Part shown: positions 1-33,624 of the stretch, one piece after another | Position numbering within the stretch: position 1 is the first letter of the stretch | How the letters are laid out: every line of letters starts with the position of its first letter | Assembly (NCBI GenBank): GCA_009380005.1 | Contig: WHSQ01000030.1 | Span: 1-36,554 of the forward strand | Direction of reading: 5' to 3' | From: Actinomycetota bacterium | GTDB taxonomy: Bacteria; Actinomycetota; CADDZG01; WHSQ01 | DNA length: 36,554 nucleotides | Notes under the pieces: model-generated | Database searches by the model: none | What the model was told of the DNA's origin: nothing | Seen by the model: the letters and a program-made list of their open reading frames with translations, nothing else | Program-made: the position numbers and the translations under genes

Positions 1-48
1 GGCACGTGGCGTGTCCAACCGGACGAGGATCGTCGCCGCGGGAGAGCC
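1..48 (-). repeat. partial copy of dispersed repeat, inverted
   Basis: The reverse complement of these 48 bases is identical to positions 33309-33356, the first part of the tandem repeat downstream of lpd. The copy continues past the left edge of the window. Reading on the minus strand it begins 42 bases after the stop codon of the Mce-associated gene, so it has the same orientation and a similar distance to the upstream gene as the copy behind lpd. No coding potential is claimed. Confidence 0.9.
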
Positions 49-89
49 AGGCCGGCGGACGACGTGTGACAGCGGAGGGCGTTCGGGGG

Positions 90-16902: not shown

Positions 16903-18462
16903 ATGCGACCTGGGTCCCAGCCCGTGACGCCCGGCTCCGAGCGCACCCGCAACGACCTTCGGCGCGCCGGAGCTCTGGCTACCGCCGTGGCTCTCGGCGG
17001 TATGTGGACGGCGTCGGCGCTCATCCCCTCGTCGGTCTTCCCGCCCGCCGCGGTGGCCGATGCGGTCATCCGCTTCACCCCGGGCGACGTCGCGACGTTC
17101 TTCATCGAGTCGCTCGGGCACTGGGCGATGCGACTGCTCGCCGTCGGCGTGCTGGCCGCGGTCGTGGTCCTGGGGGCGCAGGTGTTGGTCTGGACCCGTA
17201 TGGGGGCCGGGCCCCGGCCCTTCGTGGCCGGCGCCGTGTTGGCGGGGCTCGCGGCTCTGTTGTTCCTGGTCCCGCCGGTGACGGGATCCGACGTCGCGAC
17301 GATCGTCGTCGGCGCGATCGGTGGCCTCGTCTACGCGCTGGCGGCGCGGTCGCTGCTGGAGAGCAGAACGGAGGAGGGCGACGACGTACCGGTCGACGCG
17401 ACGCGACGAAGCTTCCTGCGGATCGGCACGGGCGGAGCGATCGCGCTCGCAACCACCGGGGGAGTCGTTGGGTGGTTGGCGCGGAAGTTAGAGGGGCCGG
17501 ACACCAACGTGACCCTCGTCCCTCCCGCGGCGCGCGCCGAGGTTCCCGCGCGCGGCGATTTCCCCGACATCCCCGGGTTGTCCCGCGAGGTCACACCCGT
17601 TCCCGATCACTACGTCGTCGACATCAACCTCCTCCAGCCCTCCGTCGACGCGACGGGTTGGAAGCTGGAGGTCTTCGGCGAGGTCGAGAAGCCCCTGACG
17701 CTCGACTTCGCCCAGCTCCAGCAACGCTTCGACGTGGTCGAGGAGTTCTCGGTGCTGAGCTGCATCTCCAACGAGGTCGGCGGCGACCTGATCGGGAACT
17801 CGGCGTGGGGAGGCGTCCGGTTACGCGACGTCCTCGAGGCCGCGGGCGTGAAACCCGGCGGCACCGAGCTGGTGCTGCGCGCCGCGGACGGCTACAGCGA
17901 CTCGTTCCCGGTCGAGCTGGGGATGGACGAGTCCGTTCTACTGGCGGTCTCACAGAACGGCCGACCCCTCACCCAGGAGCATGGGTTCCCGTGTCGCGTT
18001 CGTATCCCTCGCCTGTATGGGATGGAAAACGTCAAGTGGCTCGAGTCGATCGAGGTCGTCCGGTCCGACTACGCGGGGTACTGGCAGCAGCGGGGGTGGA
18101 AGGACACCGCCGAGGTACGCACCCAGTCGCGCATCGACGTCGCGGGTGAGGATTCGAAGGCCACCCTCGGAAAGGAGACGTGGATCGCCGGGGTCGCGTG
18201 GGCGGGTGCACGCGGCGTTGCCAAGGTGGAGGTCTCGACCGACGACGGCGGCACCTGGGCCGAGGCCCAGCTCAAGGACCCGGTCGCCGACAACGCGTGG
18301 CGCCTGTGGGCCTACCGCTGGACGCCGATCCGACGCGGCGAGGCCACGATCGTGTGCCGGGCGACCGATGGCGACGGCGACGTCCAGACCGCCGAGCTCG
18401 CCCCGCCACACCCCGCCGGCGCCACCGGATGGCACTCCGTGAAGGTGAAGGTCGAGGCCTGA
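16903..18462 (+). CDS. membrane-anchored molybdopterin oxidoreductase, sulfite-oxidase family
   Basis: A 519-residue protein. The first about 150 residues hold four hydrophobic segments. A twin-arginine-like motif RRSFLRIG (168-175) with a further hydrophobic stretch precedes a sulfite-oxidase-type molybdopterin domain (about 235-390), with the Mo-ligating Cys at residue 287 in VLSCISNEVGG. The C-terminal Mo-co dimerisation domain (about 395-519) has the KVEVSTDDGGTW motif. The catalytic domain is probably outside the membrane. The substrate is unknown. Its last 134 codons recur, at about 88% nucleotide identity by my count, at 22904-23309. The stop codon lies inside a strong hairpin. Confidence 0.87.
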   Translation: MRPGSQPVTPGSERTRNDLRRAGALATAVALGGMWTASALIPSSVFPPAAVADAVIRFTPGDVATFFIESLGHWAMRLLAVGVLAAVVVLGAQVLVWTRMGAGPRPFVAGAVLAGLAALLFLVPPVTGSDVATIVVGAIGGLVYALAARSLLESRTEEGDDVPVDATRRSFLRIGTGGAIALATTGGVVGWLARKLEGPDTNVTLVPPAARAEVPARGDFPDIPGLSREVTPVPDHYVVDINLLQPSVDATGWKLEVFGEVEKPLTLDFAQLQQRFDVVEEFSVLSCISNEVGGDLIGNSAWGGVRLRDVLEAAGVKPGGTELVLRAADGYSDSFPVELGMDESVLLAVSQNGRPLTQEHGFPCRVRIPRLYGMENVKWLESIEVVRSDYAGYWQQRGWKDTAEVRTQSRIDVAGEDSKATLGKETWIAGVAWAGARGVAKVEVSTDDGGTWAEAQLKDPVADNAWRLWAYRWTPIRRGEATIVCRATDGDGDVQTAELAPPHPAGATGWHSVKVKVEA

Positions 18463-18493
18463 TCACACGGCGCACGTATGATCGGGCCTCGAC
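18451..18493 (+). terminator. stem-loop overlapping the oxidoreductase stop codon
   Basis: A 14-base arm (18451-18464), which includes the TGA, pairs with 18480-18493 with one G-T pair across a 15-base loop. It is followed by a pyrimidine-rich CTCTCTT. It is the likely terminator of the oxidoreductase gene. The duplicate at 23298-23311 keeps only the left arm, which marks where homology ends. Confidence 0.55.
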
Positions 18494-18535
18494 CTCTCTT
18501 GACCGACGAGCCACCGCGGGGCGCGCCGACTCGAA

Positions 18536-18862
18536 CTAGTCCTGGTGGTCCCGGATGATCCAAGTCTCGCCTTTGCATAACGGCGGCTCGACGCGATCTA
18601 TCTCCTCGCCTTCTTCGTCCAAGGCGATCATGGGGCCATCGATGCATTGCCCTACGCCCGGGCCGGCATTCCGTGCCCCCGAGGGCATCACGATAGGAAC
18701 GGTTCGTCGGCCGGAGTATTCACCCTGCACAACGAGCGTGCGAACCGTTTGGCTCGAGCCATTACGGATCGTGATGTAATCATCCGGCGTGGATCCCTCG
18801 GCGCATCTCGCTGATCCGCTCGATAGGCCCAGAATGAGCACCAGCCCAAGCTTAGCGATCAT
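18536..18862 (-). CDS. small secreted hypothetical protein
   Basis: A 108-residue protein with an N-terminal signal peptide (basic MIAK, hydrophobic core, ARCA region near residues 18-21). The mature part is short and beta-rich with Cys at about 20, 74 and 96, a pattern that fits exported proteins with a disulfide. I do not recognise a family. The ATG at 18862 has GAGG about 7 nt upstream. It lies alone on the minus strand at the left edge of island 1, and its codon use is visibly less G/C-biased than that of the flanking core genes. Confidence 0.55.
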   Translation of the reverse strand: MIAKLGLVLILGLSSGSARCAEGSTPDDYITIRNGSSQTVRTLVVQGEYSGRRTVPIVMPSGARNAGPGVGQCIDGPMIALDEEGEEIDRVEPPLCKGETWIIRDHQD

Positions 18863-19029
18863 GAGATCGCCTCGCCGCGTCGGAGATAGCTGATTCAGGC
18901 TGGGCTGAACAGTGCTGGGAATTAACCGGACCGCTCATCGTCATGACGAGGGCATACCAGTTAACGATGTGGGACGTGACCTGTGGAGGCGGGACCGTGC
19001 ATGGCATCGATCGGACCTTGCTCCTCGTT

Positions 19030-19035
19030 TAGCGT
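19030..19035 (+). promoter_or_regulatory. putative leaderless -10 box of the APH-like gene
   Basis: TAGCGT lies 6 nt before the ATG at 19042. No ribosome-binding site is visible for this gene, which supports leaderless translation. The region 18863-19029 shows nothing else that I can name. Confidence 0.4.
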
Positions 19036-19041
19036 TGCGCG

Positions 19042-19800
19042 ATGAGGCCAACGAAGCCGGTTGTCCAGGTGGGAAACACTATTCGCCGGCCGATGCGATC
19101 GTGGTCTCCTGCAATCGAATCGCTGCTTAAGCATCTCGCGGCACAAAGGTTCGACGCTGCTCCCCGATGGATCGGAGTCGATGAGGAGGAGCGTGAGGTA
19201 CTCACATACGTCGAGGGGGACGTTCCGGAATATCCGTTGCCCGACTACTGCTGGAGCGAGGAGGCCCTGGTCGCAGTGGCGCGACTTCTTCGGGGTTTCC
19301 ATGACGCCACGATGTCATACCGGGGGGTGGGCGACGCGTGGCGATTCCATTATCCCGGTTCTAACCCCAGCGAAGTGATCTGTCACAACGACATCGCTCC
19401 GTACAACACGGTCTATCGAGAGCGGCTGCCGGTGGCGTTCATCGACTTCGACACCGCAGGTCCGGGGCCACGAGTCTGGGATGTCTCTTACGCCGCCTAC
19501 CGCTTCGTCCCGCTGATCCCGAAAGAAGACTACGAACGGCACGGGGTGCCGGATGACCTCGACATTCCGCGACGTCTGCGTGGCTTCACCCGAGCCTACG
19601 GAGGTTTAGAGGGTGCCCTCATCGAGGAGCTGATCCTGAGACTCGGGGTGCTCGTCTCCCACATTCGGAGCGAAGCAAAGAAGGGCGTGCCCTGGCATGT
19701 CGATGATCTCGCTAGGGGACACGTAGAGCTCTATGAGCGCCACGTGGATTGGCTTCGTGCACAAGGAGATCTGCTGTCTCGGGCGCTCATGGACCGATAG
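19042..19800 (+). CDS. APH/choline kinase-family phosphotransferase
   Basis: A 252-residue protein of the aminoglycoside-phosphotransferase fold. The catalytic loop HNDIAPYN (H115, D117, N122) and the metal-binding FIDFD (D135, D137) are intact, as is the VWDVSYAAYRF region that follows in the family. The N-terminal nucleotide-binding lobe is short. Such proteins phosphorylate aminoglycosides, choline, homoserine or other small hydroxylated molecules; the substrate cannot be assigned. It is the first plus-strand gene of island 1. Confidence 0.75.
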   Translation: MRPTKPVVQVGNTIRRPMRSWSPAIESLLKHLAAQRFDAAPRWIGVDEEEREVLTYVEGDVPEYPLPDYCWSEEALVAVARLLRGFHDATMSYRGVGDAWRFHYPGSNPSEVICHNDIAPYNTVYRERLPVAFIDFDTAGPGPRVWDVSYAAYRFVPLIPKEDYERHGVPDDLDIPRRLRGFTRAYGGLEGALIEELILRLGVLVSHIRSEAKKGVPWHVDDLARGHVELYERHVDWLRAQGDLLSRALMDR

Positions 19801-19826
19801 ATGCTTGCGTCGTCGGTAGAGAGGGA

Positions 19827-20055
19827 TTGAGCGAGATTGGATCCGCGCATCAAGAAGCCTGGGATGCAGAATATGAGGTGGGCCGCTACGAGGATGGGCC
19901 ACCGGTCGAATTCGTCCAGGACATCATCGCGGCTGCTCAACGTACAGGTCTGATTCGAGCCGAGGGGCTCTACATCGGTTGTGGGAACGGCCGCAACTAC
20001 CTTCCGTTGGTCGCCGGTGGTCTAAATCTGACCGGCCGTGATGTATCGGCCGCCG
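19827..20055 (+). pseudogene. truncated class I SAM-dependent methyltransferase
   Basis: From a TTG at 19827 the frame encodes about 76 residues resembling the N-terminus of a small methyltransferase: WDAEYEVGRYEDGPPVEFV followed by motif I, GLYIGCGNGRNYLPL, and LTGRDVS. The similarity stops at about 20055, in the middle of the Rossmann fold, just before the 3' end of the D-tartrate dehydratase gene (stop at 20064). The remaining two thirds are not found elsewhere in the window. The next cassette has apparently replaced the 3' part. Without motifs II-IV it cannot be active. Confidence 0.7.
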
Positions 20056-20063
20056 CGCGGTCT

Positions 20064-21254
20064 TCAGCTCTCGACGAGCGGCTTGAGCACCGTACGGTAC
20101 AACTCTGACTTCGCCTCCATGCCGATGCCGGGCTCTTCGGGCAGTGTGACGTAGGAGTCTTCGACCGCGATGTCGTCGGCGAAGCCGTTGAACGGCTCGA
20201 AGACGTCTGGATAGGATTCGTTGCCACCCAACCTCAACCCGGCTGCGATGTTGAGAGACATCTGATGGCCACCGTGCGGGATACAGCGCCGTGCGGACCA
20301 GCCGTGGCGGTGGAGCATGTCGAGCGTACGCAGGTACTCCACGAGGCCATAAGACAGCGCGCAATCGAACTGCAGAATGTCCCGGTCCGGTCGCATACCG
20401 CCATAGCGGATCAGATTGCGCGCGTCCTGGTGGCTGAACAGATTCTCGCCGGTGGCCATCGGCCCGGCATAGCTCTCGGTCAGAGCGCTCTGCAGGGCAT
20501 AGTCCAGCGGGTCGCCGGGCTCCTCGAACCAGCGCAGGCCCAGTGGCGCCAACGCGTCGGCATAGCGGAAGGCGGTACGCCGATCGAAACGGGCATTGGC
20601 ATCCACAGCCAGGCGGCTCGCGTCGCCGTCGAGCACGCCATCGACCACGGCCTCGATCCGTCGCAGGTCTTCAGCCAGCGGAGCCCCCCCAATCTTCATC
20701 TTGACGACCGAGTAACCGCGGTCAAGATAGGAGCGCATCTCATCCTGGAGGGCAGCGTTTCCCTTGCCGGGGTGGTAATAACCGCCGGCCGCGTAGACGA
20801 ACACTCGCTCGTCGAACTGGCCGCCTTGCATTCGGTCCGCGAGCAGGCGCCAAAGGGGCACTTCGGCGATCTTGGCCGTGGCGTCCCACAGCGCCATGTC
20901 CAGCACGCCCACGGCAACCGAGCGCTCCCCGTGCCCCCCGGGCTTCTCGTTGCTCATCAGAAGTCGCCAGATCGCTGTCGGATCCAGGTTCGTCTGGGAG
21001 TCGTCCAGCAATGAGGTGGGGTGGGCGCGAGCGGCGTCTACCAGGCGGGGGATGAAGCGCTCGCGCAGTAGCCCTTGTGGCGCGTAGCGGCCATTGGAGT
21101 TGAAACCGAAGCCGATCACAGGGCGACCCTCACGGACGACATCCGTAACGACCGCGACGACTGAGACGTTCATCCTGCTGAAGTCGATGTAGGCGTTACG
21201 GATGCGCGATTGGATCGGTACAACGATGTCGCGCACATCCACAACTGCGACCAT
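20064..21254 (-). CDS. tarD: D(-)-tartrate dehydratase-like enolase-superfamily enzyme
   Basis: A 396-residue enolase-superfamily protein that I recognise as close to Bradyrhizobium TarD. Shared stretches include RNAYIDF, INSNEKPGGHGERSVAVG-like sequence, FVYAAGGYY, GPMATGENLFSHQDARN and CIPHGGHQMSLNIAAGL. Key residues are present: K185 and K187 (KMK), metal ligands D218, E244 and E270, and H327 of PHGGH. TarD dehydrates D-tartrate to oxaloacetate. The ATG at 21254 was chosen: GGGAGGT lies 9 nt upstream and directly abuts the alternative ATG at 21263. It is the second gene of a two-gene minus-strand operon. Confidence 0.85.
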   Translation of the reverse strand: MVAVVDVRDIVVPIQSRIRNAYIDFSRMNVSVVAVVTDVVREGRPVIGFGFNSNGRYAPQGLLRERFIPRLVDAARAHPTSLLDDSQTNLDPTAIWRLLMSNEKPGGHGERSVAVGVLDMALWDATAKIAEVPLWRLLADRMQGGQFDERVFVYAAGGYYHPGKGNAALQDEMRSYLDRGYSVVKMKIGGAPLAEDLRRIEAVVDGVLDGDASRLAVDANARFDRRTAFRYADALAPLGLRWFEEPGDPLDYALQSALTESYAGPMATGENLFSHQDARNLIRYGGMRPDRDILQFDCALSYGLVEYLRTLDMLHRHGWSARRCIPHGGHQMSLNIAAGLRLGGNESYPDVFEPFNGFADDIAVEDSYVTLPEEPGIGMEAKSELYRTVLKPLVES

Positions 21255-21299
21255 TCGCCTCATACCTCCCTTGCGTGCGGAAGCAGTTGTTCCCGGGAT

Positions 21300-22415
21300 T
21301 CACGTGCCCGCGACGCGAGTCTCGCGTAACGCGTCACGATCTACGACCAGGCCGAGGCCGGGGCGGTCCGGGATGACGATCCTGCCGTTCACCGGATCGG
21401 GCGCATCGGGAAAGAGCAACTCGCCAACCTGCACCATGCCCAAGTGCCACTCAACCAACCAACCGTTCATCAGGCCGGCCATGGTGTGCATGTTGAACAA
21501 GGGCCAGCCGCCGCCGTTGGCGATCGGTAGGTTGTAGACCTGCGCCAAGTGGGCGGCCTTGCGCGCTTCCGTATAGCCTCCGCAATAGCAGACGTTGGGC
21601 TGCAGGATATCCACGGCCTGACGCTCGACCAGCTCACGCAACCGCCAGCGGTGGCCCTCCATCTGGCCCGCGGCGATGGGGATCGAGGTGTGCGCACGGA
21701 GCTCGGCCATGGCCCGGGCATCGTTCTGGTGTAACGGCTCCTCGAACCAGGTGATGCCGTAGTCCTCGATAGCCCTGCACAGGTACCTGGCCTGGACTGG
21801 CGTAAAGAGGTAATTGGCATCGACCATGATGTCGATTCCCTCGCCGACCTCTTCGCGCACGGCACGGATGCGTGCGACATCCTCGCGCCACCCACCCTTG
21901 TCCACGGCCACGATGAGCTTTAGCGCAGTAAAGCCGTTGTCTACCTGCAGGCGCGCAGCGGCGGCCAACTGTTCCCGGTCGTACTGGGGGAAGCCGAACG
22001 TGACGTAACTGTCGACCTCGGTACGCGCGTTGCCCAAGAGTCCGGCGACCGAGCGTCCGGCCGCCTGACCGTGGATGTCCCACAGGGCGATGTCCAGCAG
22101 AGACAGGGCGCTGGAAACCACGCCCGTCATGGCCCGGGGATTAAGCTTGCGGCCCACTCGCCAGTGGATCGCCTCGACATCCCGCACGTCCATGTCCTGC
22201 ACCGCGGGTAAGAAGTGTTCCTGCAGTGCAGCCACTACCGCTCGCGTCAGAAAGTGACCAGTGATCGCCACGCCCGTGAGTCCTTCGTCTGTCTCCACTT
22301 CGCAAAAAACGAACTCCTGCTGCTCCGCGCGTCCGTAGCCGCTGACCCTGTCGGTAAGGAGTGGCACGGCTATGGAAGTAGTGTGAATGCTCGCCCGGAT
22401 GTCCTTGATCTTCAT
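21300..22415 (-). CDS. mandelate racemase-group enolase-superfamily protein, atypical active site
   Basis: A 371-residue enolase-superfamily protein with the capping domain (about 1-125) and barrel. The metal ligands D199 (MVDAN) and E225 (FEEP) are present. Three usual positions differ: the second Lys of the KxK motif is Ile168 (K166-L-I), the third ligand, normally Glu, is Gln251 (IAAGQMEG), and the Asp of the Asp-His dyad region is Asn274 (LQPNV). The conserved IANGGGWPLFNMH stretch suggests a defined subgroup rather than decay. Substrate unknown; an acid sugar is likely from the family. The ATG at 22415 has GAGG about 7 nt upstream. It lies 45 bases before tarD and probably shares its transcript. 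Confidence 0.75.
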   Translation of the reverse strand: MKIKDIRASIHTTSIAVPLLTDRVSGYGRAEQQEFVFCEVETDEGLTGVAITGHFLTRAVVAALQEHFLPAVQDMDVRDVEAIHWRVGRKLNPRAMTGVVSSALSLLDIALWDIHGQAAGRSVAGLLGNARTEVDSYVTFGFPQYDREQLAAAARLQVDNGFTALKLIVAVDKGGWREDVARIRAVREEVGEGIDIMVDANYLFTPVQARYLCRAIEDYGITWFEEPLHQNDARAMAELRAHTSIPIAAGQMEGHRWRLRELVERQAVDILQPNVCYCGGYTEARKAAHLAQVYNLPIANGGGWPLFNMHTMAGLMNGWLVEWHLGMVQVGELLFPDAPDPVNGRIVIPDRPGLGLVVDRDALRETRVAGT

Positions 22416-22647
22416 TCTTCGCCTCTCGCGCCCGCTCAACACCGCGGCCGTCGGCATCGCCTCGACAGGCCCCGCGGTGCCATCATGTTTTCGCCTCGAT
22501 CCACCAGGCTAGCGTTTAGCGTTGGGCACTTGTCCCGGCGACGACAAATGCTCTTGACCTGGGCGAGAGCGTCCCTGCGGGCCGCAGCCGTCAAAGGCCG
22601 GTTTTGGACGCCGGGGCTTGTATGCCTTATAGCGCGGGCGGGCACAT
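22416..22647. other. upstream region of the enolase-superfamily operon, no gene seen
   Basis: These 232 bases should hold the promoter of the minus-strand enolase operon. A heptamer TAGCGTT occurs twice in tandem (22510-22523) and could be a regulator site, but no palindrome accompanies it. A plus-strand frame is open through the region; its sequence resembles no protein I know, so I treat it as non-coding. Confidence 0.4.
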
Positions 22648-22681
22648 CTTTGCTCAGGTGGCCCCCGACGCGCCGGCCTGA
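22648..22681 (+). pseudogene. 3' relic of a DUF3151 gene
   Basis: The last 10-11 codons of a DUF3151 gene are recognisable: 21 bases are identical to the end of the intact gene (25045-25065), followed by a stop. It is followed, 34 bases on, by the CDF fragment, the same order as the intact pair at 24663-26519 (where the gap is 66 bases). The adjacency makes chance similarity unlikely. Confidence 0.65.
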
Positions 22682-22715
22682 GGTCGAGCCGGGACCCGTC
22701 GTTCGGATCCGGCGC

Positions 22716-22907
22716 TCAGCCGCTCGGCTCGAAGTGGAACAGGACCTGGGCCAATTCGGGTTTGGCCACGAGCACCCTCTTCTCAATCCGGTCGGAGGCC
22801 TCGTGGATCCGCGCCAGCGGCAGGTCGCGCCGGGCGTGGACGTGAGCGACCACGGAGGTATCGGCCCCCGCCGACGTCACCAGGACCTCGTGGCAATCCA
22901 GGACGTC
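22716..22907 (-). pseudogene. 3' fragment of the CDF transporter gene
   Basis: Positions 22716-22907 align without gaps to 25134-25325, the last 64 codons of the intact CDF gene, with 8 differences that I count (about 96% identity). They end abruptly at CGTC (22904-22907), where the oxidoreductase fragment begins in the opposite orientation. Most of the transporter, including all membrane helices, is missing, so it is non-functional. The stop codon is retained. Confidence 0.85.
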
Positions 22908-23309
22908 CGATCCGACTACGCGAGGTACTGGCAGCAGCGGGGGTGGAAGGACACCGCCGAGGTACGCACCCAGTCGCGCAACGACGTCGCGGGAGAAGAC
23001 CGCTCCGCGAGAGCGGGCGCCGACACGTGGATCGCCGGGGTCGCGTGGGCCGGTGCGCGCGGAGTCTCGAAGGTGGAGGTCTCGACCGACGACGGCGACA
23101 CCTGGGCCGAGGCCCAACTCAAGGATCCCGTCGCCGCAAACGCGTGGCGTCTATGGGCGTACCGCTGGACCCCGACGACCCGCGGTGAAGCGACGGTCCT
23201 GTGCCGGGCCACCGATGGCGACGGCGACGTCCAGACCGCCGAGCTCGCCCCACCTCACCCCGCCGGCGCCACCGGATGGCACTCGGTGAAGGTGAAGGTC
23301 GAGGCCTGA
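22904..23309 (+). pseudogene. 3' fragment of the molybdopterin oxidoreductase gene
   Basis: Positions 22904-23309 align without gaps to 18057-18462, the last 134 codons of the intact gene, at about 88% nucleotide identity by my count. Many differences are at third codon positions and the frame is intact to the stop. The fragment covers only the Mo-co dimerisation domain, without the molybdenum site. Homology continues about 15 bases past the stop and then ends; the right arm of the terminator hairpin is absent. The frame is open upstream through the antisense CDF fragment, but that chimeric ORF is not a credible gene. Confidence 0.85.
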
Positions 23310-23446
23310 TCACGCGACGCACGACCGCCCGCTTGTATCAGAACGTTCCTATTTTGAAGAGTCCTCAGGGAGTGGGCCGGTTCCGGAGTCGACTAGGACC
23401 CGGATCCATAACCTCCCGCCGGACCAGAGCGTGTCCAGGGTTTGTG

Positions 23447-23488
23447 CTGGATTTCCAATGGAAAAAGGGTAGACTTTCCCCTGGATTT
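23447..23488 (+). promoter_or_regulatory. candidate operator of the toxin-antitoxin pair
   Basis: TTTCCA-A-TGGAAA (23452-23464) is a 6-bp dyad, with a further half-site TTTCC at 23475-23479. CTGGATTT occurs twice (23447-23454 and 23481-23488). The cluster lies 46-87 bases before the antitoxin start, in an A/T-richer stretch with TAGACT as a possible -10 element. Autoregulation by the antitoxin at such sites is usual for toxin-antitoxin operons. Confidence 0.4.
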
Positions 23489-23533
23489 GAGCTGGATACC
23501 GCTTGTGAATAGCTTGTGGGAAAGGAGACCTGA

Positions 23534-23926
23534 ATGGCGGTTTCGACACGTCCACGCCCAGACTTGGAGGCTCACACCACGGCCATGAGACTGGACTTTC
23601 CCGTCGTCGTTAAGGAGCTTCGCGAGCTACTCGGGCCTCGCCTAGTTGCGTATATCGCCGGTGTCAGAGAGACAAGAACCGTTCGGGAGTGGACCGAAGG
23701 CGCCGCCGTGAAACGCTCGGACATCGAGCTCCGCCTCCGCACGGCATTCCATATCGCCGGCTTCATCGGCGAGCATGACGCGCCCAGCGTGGTCCAGGCC
23801 TGGTTCCAGGGCTTGAACCCGCAGCTCGAGGATCAGTCGCCCGCTCGACTCATTCGGGAGGAAGACTTGACCGAGGCTGGCCCCAAGGTTCTGGCTGCTG
23901 CGCGTGCCTTTGTTGTCGGTGGATGA
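23534..23926 (+). CDS. Xre/MbcA/ParS-type antitoxin
   Basis: A 130-residue protein with an N-terminal helix-turn-helix region (about 25-60, VRETRTVREWTEGAAV) and a C-terminal toxin-binding domain of the DUF2384/MbcA-ParS type (about 65-130). The motif VVQAWFQGLNPQL is characteristic of the latter. It would bind and silence the RES toxin encoded next and repress the operon. The ATG has an ideal AAAGGAG site 6 nt upstream. Its stop overlaps the toxin start (ATGA), so the two are translationally coupled. It lies in island 2, between duplicated core-gene fragments, which fits a mobile accessory module. Confidence 0.82.
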   Translation: MAVSTRPRPDLEAHTTAMRLDFPVVVKELRELLGPRLVAYIAGVRETRTVREWTEGAAVKRSDIELRLRTAFHIAGFIGEHDAPSVVQAWFQGLNPQLEDQSPARLIREEDLTEAGPKVLAAARAFVVGG

Positions 23927-24627
23927 CCTGCGAGATTGACGGCGCGTCGCCTTCAGCGCGGCTGTTCCGCCTAGGTCGTGCTCCTGATCCGTGGTCGTGG
24001 AATGACTGGTCTCACGCGCATTCGGACGGCACCTTCGGAAACAGGTGGGACGACCCAGAATCCGAATACAGAGTGCTGTACGCGAGCACGCAACGGCTTG
24101 GGTGTTTCATGGAAACGATCGGGAGGTTTGCCAAGGATCCAGAAGTCCAAGCTGGGCTCGAGAGGATAGAACTCGAGGCAGGTGAGACAGACCACGCCGT
24201 TGGCCCCGGTCGCCTCGTTGTGAACGATTGGCTGCCACCTCGAAGAATCGGTACGGCGGCCGTGGAAGGACATTTCGCTGTCGTCGGAAGCAGCGTTTCT
24301 CTCGCTTATCTGCACGACGAGGTGGCGCACCTGCTCTCAGACTTTGGGTTGGATGAACTGGATGCCGGCGCACTTCGTTTGGTGCAGCGCGAGCTAACGC
24401 AAGCCATATCCCGGATCGTCTTTGAGTGCTCAGCCGAAGGCAGGCGTCAATTCGATGGCATTCGCTACCTGTCGAGGTATGGCGATGAATTTGAGAACTG
24501 GGGCGTTTTCGAGCCTGCCCTCGTAGATTCCGGTCAGCCAAGAGAGATCGCCGAGGAGACCCCGACCTTATCGAGGCAGCGCGACGCCTGGGTGTGGTCC
24601 TGCAGTAGGCCATTGCCGTCTTGTTAG
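23923..24627 (+). CDS. RES-domain toxin (NAD-degrading type)
   Basis: A 234-residue RES-domain protein. The residues that name the family are visible: Arg41 in GNRWDDP, Glu64 in CFMETIG and Ser184 in YLSRYGDEFENWGVFE; Tyr53 in YRVLYAST is also typical. RES toxins such as mycobacterial MbcT deplete NAD+. It overlaps the antitoxin gene by 4 nt. The C-terminal about 30 residues are Ser/Arg-rich and less conserved. With its partner it forms a type II toxin-antitoxin operon that could stabilise the island or act in phage defence. Confidence 0.85.
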   Translation: MTCEIDGASPSARLFRLGRAPDPWSWNDWSHAHSDGTFGNRWDDPESEYRVLYASTQRLGCFMETIGRFAKDPEVQAGLERIELEAGETDHAVGPGRLVVNDWLPPRRIGTAAVEGHFAVVGSSVSLAYLHDEVAHLLSDFGLDELDAGALRLVQRELTQAISRIVFECSAEGRRQFDGIRYLSRYGDEFENWGVFEPALVDSGQPREIAEETPTLSRQRDAWVWSCSRPLPSC

Positions 24628-24630
24628 GGC

Positions 24631-24656
24631 GCCGGGCCGACCGGCCCGGCTAGCAT
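24631..24656 (+). promoter_or_regulatory. hairpin and putative leaderless -10 box of the DUF3151 gene
   Basis: GCCGGGCC-GACC-GGCCCGGC (24631-24650) is a perfect 8-bp stem, four bases after the toxin stop, and may end the toxin transcript. Immediately after it TAGCAT (24651-24656) lies 6 nt before the ATG at 24663, the leaderless pattern of this window. Confidence 0.45.
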
Positions 24657-24662
24657 GCAGGG

Positions 24663-25067
24663 ATGACCCTTCCCGTGGGCGAGCCTCTCGAGACCACGAT
24701 CGAGGAGCCGGAGGGCTCGCTCGAGGCGCTGGCCGCGGCGAGCTCGAGCGAAGCCCGGCGCGAGGTCGCGGCTCGGTATCCGGAGTGCCTCGCCGCGTGG
24801 GCAACGCTGGGCGAAGAGGCCCTCGCCGGCGGCCGGTCCGTCGAGGCGTACGCGTACTTCCGTGTGGGCTATCACCGGGGGCTCGATCGGATCCGCAAGG
24901 CCGGGTGGCGCGGCGAAGGGAAGGTGCCGTGGTCGCACGAGCCCAACCGGGGCTTCCTCCGCTCCCTGCGCGGCCTGGGCCGGGCGGCGGGAGCGATCGG
25001 CGAGACGGCGGAAGAGACCCGCTGCGCCGAATTCTTGGCTCAGCTGGCCCCCGACGCGCCGGCCTAG
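24663..25067 (+). CDS. DUF3151 family protein
   Basis: A 134-residue protein of the actinobacterial DUF3151 family, recognised by PECLAAWATLGEEAL, AYFRVGYHRGLDRIRKAGWR, VPWSHEPNRGFLRSLRGLGR and the ending GETAEETRCAEFL. The protein is mostly alpha-helical and cytoplasmic with a repeat-like character; no function is known. The ATG at 24663 follows a TAGCAT box by 6 nt, with no clear ribosome-binding site. It converges with the CDF gene 66 bases downstream. Its 3' end recurs at 22648-22681. Confidence 0.85.
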   Translation: MTLPVGEPLETTIEEPEGSLEALAAASSSEARREVAARYPECLAAWATLGEEALAGGRSVEAYAYFRVGYHRGLDRIRKAGWRGEGKVPWSHEPNRGFLRSLRGLGRAAGAIGETAEETRCAEFLAQLAPDAPA

Positions 25068-25133
25068 CCCCCAGGGCGGGGCGGTTTCCCATCTGCGAGG
25101 GATGTAGGGCGAGCCCCGTCGCCCCCGGCGCGC

Positions 25134-26519
25134 TCAGCCGCTCGGCTCGAAGTGGATCAGGACCTGGGCCACGTCGGGTTTGGCCACGAGCACCCTCTTC
25201 TCGATCCGGTCGGAGGCCTCGTGGATGCGCGCCAGCGGCAGGTCCCGCCGGGCGTGGACGTGCGCGACCACGGAGGTATCGGCCCCCGCCGACGTCACCA
25301 GTACCTCGTGGCAATCCAGGACGTCGGGTTCCTCGAGCGCCGCCTCGACCACCGCGTCGACGATGTCCCCGCGCGCCGCGGTCCTGTCCTCGCCGTAGGA
25401 CGTTGGTGCTAGCGGCTCGATATGCGTATCGACCCGAACGGCGTCTCCGAGCTCCCCGGTAACGGCATCTTCGATGTCGTCGGAGAGATCGTGAGCTTGG
25501 GCGACCGACGTACCCAGAGCCATCTTGGCGTGCAGCGTCACGTGCAGCTTGCGATGGCCACGGTCGTGGAACGCGTGGACGTGAACGTTGTGAACCTCGT
25601 GCACACCTTCGATGCGGCTCGCGGCAGCTTGAGCGCGCTCGACCAGGCCGGTCGTCTCGGATATGGGCTCGACGTGAACCACCACGTCGGTTCCGGGCAC
25701 GGTGCGTTCGATCTCGCGTTCGACCTGTTCGGCGATGTCGTGGGCGCGCTCGAGCGACGCCGTGCGCCCGGCGGCGACGGTCACGTCGGCGAACAACTCA
25801 TCGGCCGTTCCGCGCACGCGCACACGTCGGATCTCGCTCACCCCGGGAACGCGCGCGGCCGCCTGCTCGATCTCCCAGACGCGCGGTTCGGGTGCACGAT
25901 CCATCAACACGTCGATCGAACGGCGGGCGAGTCGAACCGCTGCGAACGCGACGACCGCGGCCACGAGGAGGGCTCCGATCGCGTCCGCTTGCTCCGCACC
26001 TCTTCGCACGAGCACCAGACTGCCGAGGGCGATCAGAACCGTGCCCAGGTCTCCGGCGATGTTGATCGCGCCCGCCTTCAGCGCCTCCGACCTCTCGCGT
26101 CGCGCCGTGCGCACGAGTATGAAGACCCGGAAGAGGTCGACGATCGCGGAGAACCCCAGCAACGCCAGCGCGTACCCGGGCGCTTCGACCGGATGCCTCT
26201 CACCGGCCAGACGCGAGACGGCCTGGAACGCGACCACGAGCACGAGCGATCCGAGGAAAACCGTCTGACCGAACGCGACCAGGTTCTCGGCCTTCGTGTG
26301 GCCGTAGTGGTGCGATTCGTCGGCCGGCTTGTCCGCGATCCGGACGGCGACCAGCACCAGGCTCAAGGCCACGACGTCGATCAGGGAGTCCAGGGTCTGG
26401 GACAGCATCGCCAGGGACGAGGTGGCCAGCCACGCGGCCGCTTTCGCCAGCGTGAGCACCAGGGTGATCCCGAGGGCGAGGAGCGCGACTCGACGAGCCT
26501 GTCGTCGGGGGGCTTGCAT
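25134..26519 (-). CDS. CDF-family metal transporter with three C-terminal domains
   Basis: A 461-residue cation diffusion facilitator. Metal-site residues are D44 and D48 (DSLID) in helix 2 and N153 and D157 (NIAGD) in helix 5; the HHYGHTKAE motif (70-78) is present. CDFs export divalent metals using the proton gradient. N-x3-D in helix 5 instead of H-x3-D argues for Mn2+ or Fe2+ rather than Zn2+, as an inference. The usual single cytoplasmic domain is present three times (about 213-286, 292-370, 381-461), making the protein about 150 residues longer than a standard CDF. It diverges from the DtxR-type regulator, with a TACCCT box 7 nt before its ATG. Confidence 0.88.
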   Translation of the reverse strand: MQAPRRQARRVALLALGITLVLTLAKAAAWLATSSLAMLSQTLDSLIDVVALSLVLVAVRIADKPADESHHYGHTKAENLVAFGQTVFLGSLVLVVAFQAVSRLAGERHPVEAPGYALALLGFSAIVDLFRVFILVRTARRERSEALKAGAINIAGDLGTVLIALGSLVLVRRGAEQADAIGALLVAAVVAFAAVRLARRSIDVLMDRAPEPRVWEIEQAAARVPGVSEIRRVRVRGTADELFADVTVAAGRTASLERAHDIAEQVEREIERTVPGTDVVVHVEPISETTGLVERAQAAASRIEGVHEVHNVHVHAFHDRGHRKLHVTLHAKMALGTSVAQAHDLSDDIEDAVTGELGDAVRVDTHIEPLAPTSYGEDRTAARGDIVDAVVEAALEEPDVLDCHEVLVTSAGADTSVVAHVHARRDLPLARIHEASDRIEKRVLVAKPDVAQVLIHFEPSG

Positions 26520-33280: not shown

Positions 33281-33305
33281 CCCGCTCCCGCGGCCACCGA
33301 GCGGG
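33281..33305 (+). terminator. GC-rich stem-loop after lpd
   Basis: CCCGCTC (33281-33287) pairs with GAGCGGG (33299-33305). An alternative pairing of GACCCGC (33269-33275) with GCGGGTC (33301-33307) overlaps it. No T-run follows. It ends just before the first repeat copy and may terminate or stabilise the lpd transcript. Confidence 0.4.
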
Positions 33306-33308
33306 TCA

Positions 33309-33624
33309 GGCTCTCCCGCGGCGACGATCCTCGTCCGGTTGGACACGCCACGTGCCGCACAGCTTCGCCGTGCGGAACTTCGCTCCGTCCGGGGCGCGGC
33401 CTGCGGCGGCGCCCCTCCCGAGATCCCCCGGACGAGAACCGCCGCCGCCTGGGGGCTCAGGATCGGGCCTGACTCTCCCGCGGCGACGATCCTCGTCCGG
33501 TTGGACACGCCACGTGCGGCACAGCTTCGCCGTGCGGAACTTCGCTCCGTCCGGGGCGCGGCCTGCGGCGGCACCCCTCCCGAGGTCCCCCGGACGAGAA
33601 CCGCCGCCGCCTGGGGGTTCAGGA
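33309..33624 (+). repeat. 162-bp structured repeat, two tandem copies
   Basis: Copy 1 starts at 33309-33311 and copy 2 at 33473; the period is 162 bp and I count 4-5 mismatches over about 150 bases. Each copy has the inverted repeats CTCGTCCGG (33330-33338; 33492-33500) and CCGGACGAG (33428-33436; 33590-33598) near its ends. These enclose a CCGCAC/GTGCGG hairpin in copy 1 and a GTCCGGGG/CCCCGGAC hairpin. The first 48 bases recur inverted at 1-48. The frames across it are compositionally open in several phases and are not genes. The rest of the 33250-33744 gap holds the lpd stem-loop and the E2 leader. Confidence 0.9.

Follow-up and report, generated by a model that had tools for sequence, protein, structure and literature searches.

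A composite scar of three gene 3' ends in an actinobacterial draft genome and its possible origin in a partial merodiploid

Homology-facilitated illegitimate recombination is known from Acinetobacter, Pseudomonas stutzeri and Streptococcus pneumoniae, and from conjugation in E. coli (PMC3240628), and homology-assisted one-sided illegitimate joining has been discussed for small variable segments (PMC2884548). The locus we describe resembles such events in its single microhomology joint and, on the reading favoured below, would also share with them a homologous stretch at the opposite side and the gain of foreign genes without a mobile element; unlike the events that have been observed, however, it is reconstructed from a single genome in which the homologous crossover point is not located. 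Transformation of S. pneumoniae makes merodiploids with duplication joints, one of them a small duplication without flanking repeats (PMC3784515). Our locus would share with these a tandem-duplication joint that arose while DNA was being exchanged and that keeps the alleles of donor and resident together, but its unit is small and decayed and the joint is fixed in the draft genome of an uncultured actinobacterium. In the orphan immunity-gene arrays of the Vibrio cholerae T6SS, 3' remnants are pushed aside, and homology-facilitated illegitimate recombination has been proposed (PMC5361080); here too a new module displaces an older one and leaves 3' gene remnants, although there are no secretion or immunity modules and the relics are the tails of the two housekeeping-type genes that flank the site. 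Hotspots of integration that lack mobile elements and whose flanking genes recombine have also been described (PMC5635113), and they are like this locus in their variable content between conserved flanks and in the traces that recombination has left in a flanking gene; those are strain-level hotspots, whereas the variability here is across genera and not among strains of one species.

Anatomy of the scar and its cargo

The window, i.e., the whole 36,554-nucleotide stretch that was analyzed, is a complete contig of a 639-contig, 3.8-Mb assembly, and its source is therefore a draft genome, most likely a metagenome-assembled one. On the left lies an intact molybdopterin oxidoreductase gene (OXR), which is syntenic in relatives of the family and whose domain architecture is SorA/SoxC-like (sulfite dehydrogenase), with scores under the NCBIfam SorA/SoxC cut-offs; intact DUF3151 and CDF genes lie on the right, as a preliminary description had stated. 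Table 1 lists the features in gene order.

Table 1. Features of the locus, from the intact OXR gene to the intact CDF gene
Feature	Position	Strand	Remarks
Intact molybdopterin oxidoreductase (OXR)	16903..18462	+	Pfam Oxidored_molyb 2.6e-41, Mo-co_dimer 3.4e-7
OXR 3' parent segment of scar (A)	18040..18476	+	Exact junction base 18057
First cargo, older layer	18477..20063		Small ORF, APH-fold phosphotransferase, methyltransferase 5' fragment; GC about 60%
Small ORF	18536-18862	-	Lower-GC cargo
APH-fold phosphotransferase	19042-19800	+	First cargo, older layer
Methyltransferase 5' fragment	about 19803-20063	+	Weak match, Methyltransf_12 E 0.005
First cargo, later layer	20064..22646	-	Enolase-superfamily (MR_MLE) genes 20064-21263 and 21300-22457
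DUF3151 3' relic	22647..22679	+	33 bp, 94% to 25033-25065, E 6e-7
CDF 3'-end relic (B')	22712..22907	-	196 bp, 96% to 25130-25325, E 1e-87
Junction CGTC	22904..22907	+	Common to OXR 18057-18060 and CDF 25322-25325
OXR 3'-end relic (A')	22904..23323	+	22887-23323 vs 18040-18476, 87%, E 4e-138
Second cargo	23324..24640	+	Xre-like antitoxin candidate 23534-23926; RES-domain toxin candidate 23923-24627
Intact DUF3151	24663..25067	+	Genome's only intact copy; Pfam 2.4e-44; single copy in this genome (G000)
Intact CDF cation efflux gene	25134..26519	-	3' end is the parent of relic B'

A self-BLAST of the window showed that 22647-23323 is a composite of three gene 3' ends, all matching their parents on the plus strand far better than chance would allow, and in the order DUF3151, CDF and OXR that had been read from the sequence; no further copies of the scar segments were found elsewhere in the 3.8-Mb genome beyond the window's parents and relics. 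The DUF3151 relic that had been noted is present; codon comparison, however, reduced it to the last 11 codons with the stop TGA next, and the spacer between it and the CDF tail is 32 bp, half the 64 bp that separate the intact genes. The CDF relic covers the last 192 bases of its gene and 4 bases beyond, and the similarity to OXR in A' runs 14 bp beyond the stop codon. An identity of about 88% had been given for the OXR part, which is correct as an average (~87-88%) of a mosaic with ~97% identity at both ends and ~79% in 18133-18363. Within the scar the end of the right parent (CDF) stands before the start of the left parent (OXR) in the same orientation, which is a duplication-type novel joint; thus this order and orientation, together with the different cargo in the two units, confirmed the tandem-duplication topology put forward earlier, the duplicated parts being the ends only (OXR tail, DUF3151 3' end and CDF tail). 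An ORF of 22215-23309, considered as an antisense or chimeric protein, was rejected, as it crosses enolase-gene antisense and relic DNA in the manner of long spurious ORFs at 66% GC.

At the joint itself the two parents agree at 14/20 positions centred on CGTC (p = 0.0003 against random site pairs in both genes, and p about 0.01 given pairs that already share 4 bp), which fits end-joining or slippage at microhomology as a possible mechanism. The exact joint sequence was sought in viral contigs without a match. A strong near-perfect hairpin (18449-18495; 21-nt arms, 90% complementary) lies across the stop codon of the intact OXR, and its right arm is gone from relic A', so that the cargo boundary may fall inside a former terminator.

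The cargo has a GC content of about 57-66%, compared with about 67-74% in the flanks. The first enolase gene cuts the methyltransferase at 20064, and the first copy of DUF3151 breaks off at 22647, which lies about 190 bases past the second enolase gene; a single insertion-deletion that brought in the enolase pair would account for both cuts. No family match was found for the small ORF, and the best matches in a sample of the phylum were distant only, at 35% identity for the second enolase-family gene and 45% for the APH gene. A second APH-like fragment in the genome, on another contig (C7), is unrelated to the scar. In the second cargo, the RES gene matched Pfam RES (2.9e-11), and the Xre-like and RES genes have paired counterparts with 67-83% identity in G008 and G013, which represent two further genera of the family, at sites not established as the OXR/CDF gap. 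At the thresholds applied, neither PADLOC nor NCBIfam gave a match for this pair, and PADLOC identified no defence family over the cargo.

We found no tRNA at the locus and identified no recombinase family, integrase or transposase among the scanned genes of 18477-24640, and the regional repeats, inspected for mobile-element terminal repeats, were the scar parents or short ones only. Integron cassettes were considered based on GTT-type core-site-like motifs near 19030 and 22521, and were rejected, as by eye the inner boxes are non-complementary and the gene orientations are mixed. Ku and ComEC are encoded in the genome; both are common, and while they are compatible with end-joining and uptake routes they are not evidence that either acted here.

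Divergence between the copies and gene order in relatives

Over their shared length the two OXR copies differ with dS 0.39 and dN 0.08 (dN/dS 0.20), and equal rates were rejected (p = 2e-8). The divergence is uneven, with dS of 0.06 in 18061-18132, 0.69 in 18133-18363 and 0.13 in 18364-18459, a pattern that recombination between strains produces. A change-point permutation along OXR gave p about 0.01 with all codon differences and 0.09 with the synonymous ones alone, and thus the synonymous changes by themselves hint only weakly at a mosaic. The CDF copies gave dS 0.107 and dN 0.022 (Fisher p = 0.03), and the OXR flanks and CDF, short relic samples taken together, hold 9 synonymous versus 4 non-synonymous differences, which has p = 0.0009 against neutrality and p = 0.024 against neutral evolution of just one of the copies ("half-neutral"). 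The intergenic DNA by the CDF tail has large indels, while the coding parts are 94-96% alike. Differences in the OXR centre are at sites that vary in relatives, in which the A' residues often occur; A' shows, in addition, a G-to-R and an I-to-N change at positions invariant in 11 relatives. These comparisons suggest that the copies diverged mostly as functional genes, to about the distance between strains or sister species, that one OXR copy probably bears a more distant tract, and that the truncated OXR has apparently since begun to decay as a pseudogene. The view that the OXR part diverged while functional, which had been based on its third-position differences, is thus upheld by both the dN/dS of OXR and the test on the OXR flanks and CDF.

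The relatives that we compared belong to other genera of the same family, none of them being of the same genus. In seven of the family genomes (G002, G003, G005, G006, G007, G010 and G014) OXR and CDF adjoin each other directly in convergent orientation, and the content of the gap between them varies by genus. About 26-84 bp separate the two genes in G003, G010 and G005, whereas differing small genes occupy the gap in the other four: a RidA-like ORF (G002), a gene for a small membrane protein (G006), and an NAD-epimerase-like gene together with a membrane protein gene (G007 and G014). Gene names in these four genomes were read from the sequence and are not profile-based. OXR is missing beside CDF in G001, as is CDF beside OXR in G011 and G015 (loci L035, L044 and L049), and the family can thus lose one or the other of the two genes.

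DUF3151 was never seen in the OXR/CDF gap of the relatives. Of the 16 family genomes searched, 13 have the gene, this genome among them; it is single copy here and in the 12 relatives, where it stands at unrelated places beside differing genes. As the relatives have OXR and CDF adjacent and DUF3151 elsewhere, the position of DUF3151 here is private to this lineage, and as the relic already has DUF3151 beside the CDF tail, this linkage predates the scar. An uninterrupted order of OXR, DUF3151 and CDF had been anticipated in related genomes; the neighbourhood of OXR and CDF was found as expected, but DUF3151 is not their ancestral neighbour. A genome-contig search with OXR did not find a close relative or donor, the best match having 58% amino-acid identity.

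Origin of the joint

Starting from the scar anatomy, the sequence relations, the divergence pattern, the synteny in relatives and the single DUF3151, we infer a direction, a donor, an order of events and the enzymes for the history that follows. We hold, with somewhat better than even confidence, that horizontal recombination at an insertion site tolerant of additions produced a partial merodiploid, and that the scar is its new joint. On the resident chromosome the small ORF, APH and methyltransferase genes would have stood between OXR and DUF3151-CDF, and a fragment from a close relative would have had the same flanks with other cargo, namely Xre-RES between its own OXR (OXR') and DUF3151-CDF. 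The incoming fragment would have integrated by homology on the CDF side, while its other end, inside OXR', would have joined the 3' end of the resident CDF illegitimately at the 4-bp CGTC microhomology, so that both cargo sets came to lie in line with a CDF-tail/OXR-tail scar between them. Later, the two enolase-family genes would have taken the place of the methyltransferase end and of the first DUF3151, by then redundant, of which the last 11 codons stayed behind, and the OXR tail (A') would have decayed as a pseudogene. Because the gene is single copy here and present in 13/16 family genomes, the first DUF3151 was presumably lost after the second had arrived. Import is the best reading in that it explains the topology, the microhomology, the mosaic and the selective pattern by one event followed by one cargo replacement. 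The replacement of both copies of the intervening DNA, which had been part of the preliminary description, is not needed, since differing cargo in donor and recipient and one later MR_MLE replacement suffice.

The same final structure, and also the divergence under purifying selection, would result if the whole OXR-DUF3151-CDF unit had been duplicated in tandem within this lineage, with both units functional and diverging while they gained separate cargo, and a deletion had then run from within the first CDF copy into the second OXR copy. Such a history does not by itself give the uneven dS (0.06-0.13 versus 0.69 in the OXR centre), and no relative with two OXR-CDF units was found. It also counts against this history that copies in tandem are generally lost or homogenised before they differ this much, and we regard this explanation as unlikely, ranking it second to import. 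A duplication in place of 18057-25325 only, with islands replacing both inner segments, agrees with the junction topology; it predicts, however, that the truncated ends A' and B' drifted as pseudogenes, whereas the differences are strongly synonymous (see the p values above for OXR and for its flanks with CDF). It also requires two separate island replacements, and divergence in the intergenic part far exceeds that in the coding parts, making this version very improbable. Import had been rated as likely as duplication in place; given the dN/dS and the excess of synonymous differences, it fits better than a duplication of gene ends followed by drift.

If import is correct, this natural joint shows the accessory sets of two sister lineages brought into series on a single chromosome with no mobile element involved, a step that is usually only inferred because normal homologous exchange swaps the sets and leaves no mark, and it offers a route by which a RES/Xre-like toxin-antitoxin candidate pair becomes fixed at such a site. 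The scar most likely stems from uptake of a close relative's DNA, an event of a type that is already known and is rarely preserved so clearly; the donor is plausible, not proven, and a single case in a draft genome is illustrative, not decisive. A wider proposal, that the OXR/CDF gap is a recurrent site in this family for one-sided illegitimate joining, where the cargo sets of strains pile up in series and each leaves a gene-tail scar, we consider quite doubtful.

The draft state of the genome has its own bearing on these readings. Contigs C233 (the window) and C399 start with the same 55 bases, of which C22 shares 54, suggesting an assembly k of 55. As A and A' share an exact run of 57 bases, the assembly graph is ambiguous at this node, and with 639 contigs in a probably metagenome-assembled genome the structure might be an artefact of assembly or of strain mixture. 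The CDF/OXR joint, however, shares only 4 bases and cannot be made by k-mer merging, no contig with an alternative allele was binned, a gene found in most of the family genomes searched would be missing from a strain whose sole DUF3151 was the truncated one, and A' has pseudogene-type changes; an artefact is, we think, rather improbable. The ambiguity at A and A', direct repeats 4,847 bp apart, also means that the first cargo unit (about 4,847 bp, from the OXR tail to the scar) would look the same in the graph if it were at least partly excised as a circle or present in several tandem copies, of which the contig shows one; no replication, recombinase or mobility gene was identified in the unit, and we consider this extremely improbable.

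Elsewhere in the window, a 162-bp intergenic repeat occurs in two tandem copies (95%) at 33299-33624; it is dispersed in the genome on C222, C333, C210 and C22, and is also found at the starts of C233 (window 1-55), C399 and C22.
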